Shown: in pieces, positions 23,546 through 25,085 of the stretch | How the letters are laid out: each line of letters begins with the position of its first letter | Numbering within the stretch: position 1 is the stretch's first letter | Source of the DNA: Natronolimnobius sp. AArcel1 | GTDB lineage: Archaea; Halobacteriota; Halobacteria; Halobacteriales; Natrialbaceae | Assembly: GCF_011043775.1 (NCBI RefSeq) | Contig: NZ_JAAKXY010000002.1 | Location: 186,001-250,000 of the forward strand | Length of the DNA stretch: 64,000 nucleotides | Direction of reading: 5' to 3' | Notes under the pieces: generated by a model | What the model was told of the DNA's origin: nothing | What the model saw: the letters and a program-made list of their open reading frames with translations, nothing else | The model's database searches: none | Position numbers and translations under genes: made by a program

Positions 23546-24448
23546 TTAGTCATCAGGCCGCTCTTTCCACTCGCCGATACCCGAGGGATCGAGATGGACG
23601 TGTGCGTCACCGACATCCTCGATCGCTCGCAATTGATCGACAAGGTCGGATTCGATATCGTGAGCCTGACGAAACGGCATGTTGCCATCGACTTCGACGT
23701 GGACTTCCACCTCGAGGACGGTGCCATCGTAGAAGACCGTCAGATCGTGAACACCCTCGACAGCAGGGTGATCGCGCAGGGTTCGGGTGATCTCCGTGCG
23801 CTTCTCGGAGCTCGCCGCAGCGCCGACGAGGTAGGTAACGTTCTCGCGGCCGATTTTGATGCCCTGATAGATGACGAGCAGACTGACGAGCCCGCCGGCA
23901 ATGGGGTCAAGTATCGGCACGTTCAGCAGGACGCCGAGGACGCCGACGGTGGCGGCGATCGAGGTGTAGATGTCGTTGAGACAGTCCGCCGCGAGCGCGG
24001 AGAGGGCAGTTGACCCGATATCGGCGTTGACGTACTCTGTGTATCGGTAAACGAGATACATATCGACTATCGCGAACGCCAGTGCGCCGAGCAAAAGCGG
24101 CGTCGCGTCAGGTGGATCGAGTTCGACGAGTCCCTGCAGGGATTCAACGAGCAGGATCAGTCCGAGGACAGCAATAACACTCCCGACAAACAGCGCCGTG
24201 AGGGGTTCGATCCGGTCGTGCCCGTGGGGGTGTGTATCATCCGGTTCGTCGAAGGAACTGCGACCCCAGACGAGGACGACAACGCTTGCGACCAGATCCG
24301 CAATCGAGTGCGCCGCGTCTGCGAGCAGGGCTACGCTGCCGAAGGCCAACCCCGCCGCCCCTTCGACGATAATCTTGACCGTATTCCCGAGGACATTCGC
24401 CCATGAAGCGCGAACAAACCCGCGTCTGCCGGTCGCCGAGTCGGCCAT
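23546..24448 (-). CDS. Cation diffusion facilitator (CDF) metal transporter
   Basis: This 300-residue CDF antiporter exports divalent metal in exchange for protons. Six helices and a C-terminal cytoplasmic domain (~residues 210-290, ending VGDAHVHLDPSG) are visible. TM2 carries the usual LADAAHSIAD with His and Asp. TM5 reads AADCLNDIYTS, where the family normally has HxxxD; here the positions are Asn and Thr, so the transport site is altered. A His-containing loop (DDTHPHGHDR) follows TM2. A perfect 19 bp palindrome begins 5 bp upstream of the start and probably binds a metal-responsive repressor. It is divergent from the crcB pair. Confidence 0.92.
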   Translation of the reverse strand: MADSATGRRGFVRASWANVLGNTVKIIVEGAAGLAFGSVALLADAAHSIADLVASVVVLVWGRSSFDEPDDTHPHGHDRIEPLTALFVGSVIAVLGLILLVESLQGLVELDPPDATPLLLGALAFAIVDMYLVYRYTEYVNADIGSTALSALAADCLNDIYTSIAATVGVLGVLLNVPILDPIAGGLVSLLVIYQGIKIGRENVTYLVGAAASSEKRTEITRTLRDHPAVEGVHDLTVFYDGTVLEVEVHVEVDGNMPFRQAHDIESDLVDQLRAIEDVGDAHVHLDPSGIGEWKERPDD

Positions 24449-24453
24449 ACCTG

Positions 24454-24472
24454 GTTTAGACCCAGTCTAAAC
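24454..24472. promoter_or_regulatory. Perfect inverted-repeat operator upstream of the CDF gene
   Basis: GTTTAGACCCAGTCTAAAC consists of 8 bp arms around a 3 bp spacer and lies 6-24 nt upstream of the CDF start codon. For a leaderless haloarchaeal transcript this region spans the initiation site, so a dimeric repressor bound here would block transcription. Haloarchaeal metal-responsive ArsR-, DtxR- or MarR-type regulators use such dyads. Which one acts here cannot be told from the sequence. Confidence 0.6.
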
Positions 24473-24575
24473 TTGGATCTTTCCCTCCGGCCGTCGTGTG
24501 TGAGTCGTCCACGCAGTTCGTCCCTCCTTCCGAAATTCTCATATGTCCACTCTGAGAACGCTCGAGCAGACTTAC

Positions 24576-24650
24576 GGGCGATGGGGCCCGCCTGACTCAA
24601 CTGCCGCTCTCGGCGACCGACACCCCTCGAGGGCGGCTGACGGTCCCTGC
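24576..24650 (+). promoter_or_regulatory. Fluoride riboswitch (crcB motif) before crcB
   Basis: The 5' part, GGGCGATGGGGCCCGCC (24576-24592), matches the Thermotoga petrophila fluoride aptamer except for one A-to-G change. The 3' part is GGCTGACGGTCCCTGC (24635-24650). The pseudoknot GGCG/CGCC is kept. The main stem GGGGCC/GGTCCC is kept with a compensatory A-U to G-C change, and the linchpin A and U after GGCTG and before GC are present. The hairpin is GCCGC/GCGGC with an enlarged loop. It lies immediately upstream of the crcB ATG (24660). A TATA-like CATATG (24540-24545) would place transcription start just before it. Confidence 0.85.
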
Positions 24651-24659
24651 CTCCAACCC

Positions 24660-25085
24660 ATGGCAGCATCCCCATCCCATCCACTCGTCCGACTCGAGAC
24701 GCTTGCACTGATCGCTATCGGCGGCTTCGTCGGGGCGAACCTCCGGTTTCTCGCACTCGGCGCGCTCTCGGATATACAGGCTGTCTTGCTCGTCAACGTC
24801 GTCGGCAGTTTCACACTCGGCCTGTTCGCCTACGAAGCCGAGTATGTCGACATCCTCTCGCGAAAATCGCGGCTCGTCTTTACGACCGGCGTTCTCTCCT
24901 CGCTGACGACCTACAGCACGTTTGCAATCCAGACTGCAATCGACGCCGGCCCCGCCGAGCCGCTGTTGCTCGTCGGCATCGTCGCCGGCAACTACGGACT
25001 CGGCTTTACCGGCGTTCTCGCGAGTCGAACAGTTGTTCGATGGCTCACCACGGGACCACACCCGACAGGCGGTGAGACTGCATGA
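24660..25085 (+). CDS. crcB: Fluoride efflux channel CrcB/Fluc, first subunit
   Basis: This 141-residue four-helix protein of the CrcB/Fluc family is a fluoride-selective channel that works as a dual-topology dimer. The signature region is GGFVGANLRFLALG with the Asn/Arg typical of the first helix. NVVGSFTLGLF contains the conserved Asn, and TGVLSSLTTYSTFAIQ is the Phe-box/TTYSTF track helix. ATG 24660 follows the riboswitch directly; a longer in-frame ATG at 24543 would translate the aptamer and is rejected. Its stop overlaps the next crcB start, so the two proteins probably form a heterodimer with opposite orientation. Confidence 0.93.
   Translation: MAASPSHPLVRLETLALIAIGGFVGANLRFLALGALSDIQAVLLVNVVGSFTLGLFAYEAEYVDILSRKSRLVFTTGVLSSLTTYSTFAIQTAIDAGPAEPLLLVGIVAGNYGLGFTGVLASRTVVRWLTTGPHPTGGETA

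Follow-up and report, generated by a model that had tools for sequence, protein, structure and literature searches.

A variant fluoride-type aptamer before the crcB genes of Natrialbaceae and its predicted role at a start codon without Shine-Dalgarno sequence

Introduction

Does the leader of a haloarchaeal crcB gene pair contain a fluoride riboswitch and, if so, at which step of gene expression could such an RNA act? This question is raised by a locus in a 64,000-nucleotide stretch of the Natronolimnobius sp. AArcel1 genome, referred to here as the window, for which a fluoride-type aptamer had been proposed (hereafter the original prediction). The crcB motif was reported from bacteria and archaea in 2010 (PMC2864571) and mechanistic work has settled the role of its pseudoknot and of the A40-U48 linchpin (PMC8752731, PMC11077080). 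In archaea, regulation by this RNA is indeed little studied, as the original prediction had remarked: as of 2021, Thermococcus kodakarensis provided the one natural archaeal riboswitch that had been shown experimentally (PMC8241225). Structured leaders had been regarded as untypical for haloarchaea (PMC4983044), and in the literature we searched we found no paper on a haloarchaeal crcB riboswitch.

The aptamer and its genes

Positions 24568-24656 of the window (plus strand) align end to end with the covariance model RF01734 (fluoride riboswitch) at 31.3 bits. The E-value is 3.5e-7 when the short segment alone is searched and 1.6e-6 across the 4.56-Mb genome, where the next best match stands at 0.6. 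The score narrowly misses the Rfam gathering score of 34 bits, an annotation cut-off rather than a biological feature, which the original prediction had chosen as its check; a scan of the whole window at gathering thresholds gave no match of any family.

The following structural features by which members are recognized are present in the window: the P1 and P2 helices, the pseudoknot between loop and 3' strand, and the nucleotides of the long-range A6-U38 and A40-U48 pairs (Table 1). The RF01734 alignment thus contains the core that had been predicted, including pseudoknot and linchpin, and the two quoted sequence strings lie where they had been placed (24576-24592 and 24635-24650). Positions are numbered after the T. 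petrophila sequence, and column correspondence was checked against the Rfam consensus, relative to which P2 of the window is expanded. The fold of the leader is not diagnostic by itself, being only slightly more stable than that of shuffled sequences (z = -1.3 to -1.4). Other weak matches in the segment (mir-9198, HgcF, reverse strand; 13-14 bits) were rejected as chance.

The aptamer occupies the 5' leader of crcB1, whose start codon is 24660-24662; the 9-nt gap to the ATG and the lack of a Shine-Dalgarno sequence, both noted earlier, are correct in the window. The two downstream genes overlap by 4 nt (ATGA) and score 55.4 (crcB1) and 84.1 bits (crcB2) against PF02537, compared to a curated cut-off of 32.9. 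The proposal of a haloarchaeal fluoride-type aptamer directly 5' of a crcB pair is well supported, and we consider the element very probably to be such an aptamer.

On the other side of the locus, a perfect inverted repeat, GTTTAGAC-CCA-GTCTAAAC, is found at 24454-24472, adjoining a divergent cation-efflux gene (23546-24448, minus strand). The repeat resembles the operator of a metalloregulator, and stretches similar to TTTAGAC or GTCTAAAC are also present in relatives.

Table 1. Features of the crcB locus in window coordinates
Feature	Position	Strand	Basis
BRE-like CGAAA (24531-24535) and TATA-like TCATAT (24539-24544)	24531-24544	+	fixed-distance signals in relatives
P1, 5' strand GGCG (partner 24589-24592)	24577-24580	+	RF01734 alignment, pair counts
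A6; U38; A40; linchpin U48	24581; 24638; 24640; 24648	+	sequence and RF01734 alignment
Pseudoknot, 5' strand GGGGCC (pairs with 24642-24647)	24583-24588	+	covariation in relatives
P1, 3' strand CGCC	24589-24592	+	RF01734 alignment
P2, 10-bp helix (24603-24612/24628-24637) with 15-nt loop	24603-24637	+	sequence, MFE fold, loop statistics
3' aptamer segment: A40, C41 (24641), pseudoknot 3' strand, linchpin U48	24640-24648	+	alignment, pair counts
Pseudoknot, 3' strand GGUCCC	24642-24647	+	6/6 pairs with 24583-24588, one G-U
Predicted helix B, 5' strand CUGCC (overlaps C47, U48, G49)	24647-24651	+	MFE and centroid of 24569-24700
crcB1 (CrcB/Fluc fluoride channel), 141 aa	24660-25085	+	PF02537 E = 8.8e-15; PDB CrcB match E = 5.6e-4
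Predicted helix B, 3' strand GGCAG (G of AUG, codon 2, first base of codon 3)	24662-24666	+	fold, codon-2 statistics
crcB2, 133 aa	25082-25483	+	PF02537 E = 9.6e-24; PDB CrcB 5a40 E = 1.5e-9

Conservation across haloarchaea

At E <= 0.01, RF01734 matched 54 of the 125 genomes of the window's family, and only 8 of these 54 reached the gathering score. The Rfam model misses most members in the Natrialbaceae, and the low scores are due mainly to their expanded P2; haloarchaeal members with a short P2 that score above 34 are very likely contained in the Rfam full set. Records with the same motif, where named, all belonged to Natrialbaceae (Natrinema, Natrialba, Natronococcus, Natronorubrum, Halopiger and others). 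RF01734 matches without the core and with weak E-values (L002-L008, L051, L052, L062-L064) were rejected as chance.

In an alignment of 42 aptamers, 99.8% of the pair cells were standard and four pairs were changed on both sides, a level reached by none of 500 shuffles; for this and the other statistics on related sequences, ancestry is only partly corrected for. At pseudoknot column 17/103, 40 rows have a G-C pair and 2 an A-U pair, so that the compensatory exchange between A-U and G-C that had been named for a position of this kind occurs within haloarchaea. A covariance model retrained on the 42 aptamers matched 108 of 391 haloarchaeal genomes and 40 of the 86 genera of the class; 69 of the matched genomes belong to the family of the window and 39 to seven other families. 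In nearly all of these matches the next open reading frame on the 3' side is crcB, the exceptions being a few weak matches (L193-L205) that were likewise rejected as chance. Outside the Natrialbaceae the pseudoknot has been rewritten yet remains paired, as GGAGUC/GACUCC, GGGGUC/GACUCC, GGGGCU/GGCUCC or GGCGUC/GACGCC.

About 20 core positions are invariant in dozens of species, whereas the P2 loop and the leader are scrambled. Loop lengths in Natrialbaceae span 3-96 nt, with a median of 43 as against 9 in the other families, and in three Natrialba loci (L137, L142, L153) the P2 insert reaches up to ~170 nt, partly as an 8-nt tandem repeat, despite which core and 3' arm are nearly intact.

These observations bear on the trivial explanation that the element is a chance match or an artefact of coding sequence. 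It could draw on the score below the gathering value and on an in-frame ORF (24543-25085) that spans the aptamer, but we regard its probability as negligible, given the genome-wide E-value and the comparative data, which already refute it. As the lengths of the P2 loop break the frame while the base pairs persist, the upstream ORF is not conserved, and given the conservation in relatives, the sub-threshold score does not denote a false positive.

The aptamer has also been lost or has decayed within the family. In Natrialbaceae loci L208-L213 crcB and its promoter are kept and the aptamer is lost; in L136, L140, L144, L151 and L156 promoter and crcB are retained next to a decayed aptamer.

Three further arrangements came to light in the searches. 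Genomes elsewhere in the phylum have up to seven RF01734 matches within ~13 kb, on both strands (G714:C3:201740-214613, G654:C16:70098-82052). One Natrialbaceae genome has a U41-type aptamer of 53.9 bits before an apparently frameshifted crcB (L010, 1501-1730). In two genomes of family f4 (L165, ~1509-1790, and the matching part of L168), a second fluoride-type aptamer is located immediately upstream of the aptamer-crcB1 unit and precedes a predicted membrane protein of 68-72 aa without Pfam assignment, a candidate for a fluoride-responsive small membrane protein.

A substitution at position 41

One deviation from the consensus had not been mentioned in the original prediction: position 41 of the window aptamer is C (24641) instead of U. 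In a survey of haloarchaeal and other archaeal sequences, 66 of the 68 aptamers from Natrialbaceae had C41, the remaining two being divergent copies, and U41 was present in all 30 aptamers of other haloarchaeal families as well as in the methanogen and related archaeal sequences that we read. Because it lacks the U41 of RF01734, we refer to the Natrialbaceae form as a variant.

U41 is highly conserved beside the linchpin, and its exchange for A makes the Bacillus cereus switch unresponsive (PMC11077080). With C41 so prevalent in the family, and with decayed or deleted aptamers in several of its members, the Natrialbaceae aptamer might have lost its fluoride response and now be a constitutive leader or respond to another ligand. 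We consider this very unlikely, as the ~20 invariant core positions and the constant association with crcB point to selection for function and, unlike U41A, the exchange of U for C retains a pyrimidine. Moreover, it is Mg2+ and phosphates that hold the fluoride, not the bases (PMC8752731), and it is expected that the phosphate of U41, rather than its base, coordinates Mg2+. With all other core positions unchanged beside a scrambled loop and leader, C41 appears to be tolerated or tuned rather than inactivating.

Promoter and transcript start

In 67 Natrialbaceae sequences anchored on the first base of P1, positions -42 to -38 read as a BRE-like CGnAA and positions -34 to -31 as a TATA-like TCAT; TA at -34/-33 is found in 27 sequences of other haloarchaeal families. 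The corresponding elements of the window are located 4 nt further upstream. Given the usual spacing of 26-27 nt between TATA element and start, transcription is predicted to begin ~5 nt 5' of P1 in the relatives. For the window the predicted start is ~24566-24570, about 7-11 nt ahead of P1. The fixed distance of these promoter-like signals across species supports the earlier notion that the mRNA begins at the aptamer, its leader thus consisting of the aptamer and ~11 nt.

About half of the Natrialbaceae crcB promoters also contain inverted half-sites, CTCA(T)...(T)GAGAA, over the TATA-like element with a usual spacing of 11 (24538-24558 in the window), which may belong to a second, transcriptional regulator.

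Start-codon surroundings and mode of control

Translational riboswitches of the masking type base-pair a Shine-Dalgarno sequence in one of two alternative structures; none of 66 Natrialbaceae leaders has such a sequence before the ATG. Instead, the five bases 5' of the AUG are conserved in this family with 1.05-1.41 bits each and the consensus CAGCC, the remaining leader being near random. CAGYY directly precedes the AUG in 48 of 65 Natrialbaceae aptamer leaders and in 1 of ~20 aptamer-less crcB genes. As a background, 166 ATG starts of this family were collected from the window and 40 Natrialbaceae loci of 8 kb, with starts inferred from ORFs; CAGC[CU] was found at 2 of them. RCAG is common right after the AUG, and alanine in codon 2 is encoded by GCA in 35 of 36 cases, compared to 10.9% in the background.

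Both flanks of the AUG are complementary to the aptamer. In helix A, GGCUG (35-39) would pair with the CAGCC before the AUG, consuming U38; in helix B, CUGYC (47-51) would pair with the G-RCAG at the AUG, consuming U48. Either helix would cover the AUG. In ViennaRNA folding, with molar KCl and the pseudoknot outside the model, helix A has a mean probability of 0.38 in the free ensemble, compared to 0.04 with shuffled leaders, and in Natrialbaceae, imposing the aptamer lowers start occlusion by more than it does in shuffles (p = 0.0007); in the other haloarchaeal families this effect is not significant (p = 0.18). Helix B is found in 9 of the 11 Natrialbaceae without helix A, two sequences having neither (Fisher p = 0.0019; the eleven come from few clades), and a tree-controlled test of the exchange between the helices comprises only 4 independent pairs and thus has no power. 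The window carries helix B only, and CUGCC/GGCAG alone amounts to -7.2 kcal/mol; that this specific hairpin (24647-24651/24662-24666) forms is a plausible, if tentative, prediction. In family f8, GGAG is located 6 nt 5' of the AUG and is complementary to the CUCC of the pseudoknot; judging by its sequence, this is the ordinary, Shine-Dalgarno-masking version of the same logic.

We propose the following model. Transcription would start just upstream of P1. At low fluoride, the 3' part of the aptamer would be unlocked and nucleotides of the pocket could pair with the surroundings of the start codon, in most relatives through helix A and in the others, as well as the window, through helix B, so that the AUG would be hidden. 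Fluoride and Mg2+ would lock the pseudoknot and A40-U48; as the locked state is incompatible with the masking helices, the AUG would be freed and the exporters made. That the crcB1-crcB2 mRNA begins with a fluoride riboswitch, and that its start codon is masked at low fluoride and freed by the ligand, seems reasonably probable, and a translational ON switch is the likely mode. Fluoride binding, switching and its direction are what we infer here. It is possible, though doubtful, that the Natrialbaceae form constitutes a distinct subclass, marked by C41, in which the pocket bases C37-U38-G39 or C47-U48-G49 pair with the flanks of the AUG, ligand binding and start masking compete, and neither terminator nor Shine-Dalgarno sequence is needed.

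The original prediction had suggested that initiation or early elongation, taken here as steps of transcription, could be the control point, which is not supported. We looked for an intrinsic terminator, a GC hairpin with a U-tract overlapping the 3' strand of the aptamer, and found none, and the context of the start codon is under constraint at the RNA level; together, these findings favor control of translation initiation. Transcriptional control, in which RNA polymerase stops after the aptamer when fluoride is absent, as in B. cereus, is the mode of most studied bacterial members (PMC11077080), but seems quite improbable here: U48 and the AUG are only ~11 nt apart, T-runs between the end of the aptamer and +60 do not exceed 2 nt in the window or 3 nt in Natrialbaceae, and the sole terminator-like match, at chance level, lies inside crcB1 (24858).

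A less remote alternative, though still an unlikely one, is that CAGCC-AUG-GCAG is a signal for initiation or mRNA stability in leaders without Shine-Dalgarno sequence, and that the aptamer acts otherwise, for example through the stability of P2 and pseudoknot against a landing ribosome. Leadered initiation without Shine-Dalgarno sequence is known in haloarchaea (Hering 2009, as relayed in PMC8241225), and the helix exchange, controlled for the tree, has only the few independent pairs given above. In addition, three of the decayed aptamers (L140, L151, L156) still hold CAGCC before the ATG; the motif therefore persists for some time once the aptamer decays, which is a caution against a purely anti-aptamer reading. 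Against this alternative stand the rarity of the motif in background genes and in crcB genes without aptamer, as well as its complementarity to the aptamer, with its last two positions often changed from C to U in a way that keeps G-U pairs. Masking of the start codon is the explanation we prefer.

Comparison with known systems

New in this locus are the variant features of the Natrialbaceae, C41 and the expanded P2, and the predicted start-codon platform that does without a Shine-Dalgarno sequence. Widespread crcB leaders in cultivable haloarchaea lend themselves to experiments on how riboswitches control such translation, the fixed C41 provides natural variation at a residue regarded as essential, and the natural losses of the aptamer with retained promoters are ready controls.

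With the crcB riboswitches of Thermotoga petrophila and B. cereus (RF01734), the Natrialbaceae form shares P1, P2, the pseudoknot, A6/U38, A40/U48 and the location in the 5' UTR of a fluoride exporter. It differs from this type in having C rather than U at position 41, a P2 expanded to 10 bp (with the long insert in Natrialba), G rather than A at position 49 in most members, neither terminator nor Shine-Dalgarno sequence, and a score below the gathering value.

The haloarchaeal families with a short P2 (e.g. L161-L188) have the same order of elements, the crcB context and a transcript that begins with the aptamer, but are distinguished by U41, a median P2 loop of 9 nt and other pseudoknots (GGAGUC/GACUCC, GGGGCU/GGCUCC, GGCGUC/GACGCC). 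Among them, family f8 has a Shine-Dalgarno sequence complementary to a pseudoknot strand.

Compared by description, the fluoride riboswitch of T. kodakarensis (Speed et al. 2018, as relayed in PMC8241225; transcript in PMC4247193) is likewise archaeal, presumed to control translation and part of the defence against fluoride. It belongs to another lineage, and its RNA precedes TK0513, next to crcB (PMC4247193).
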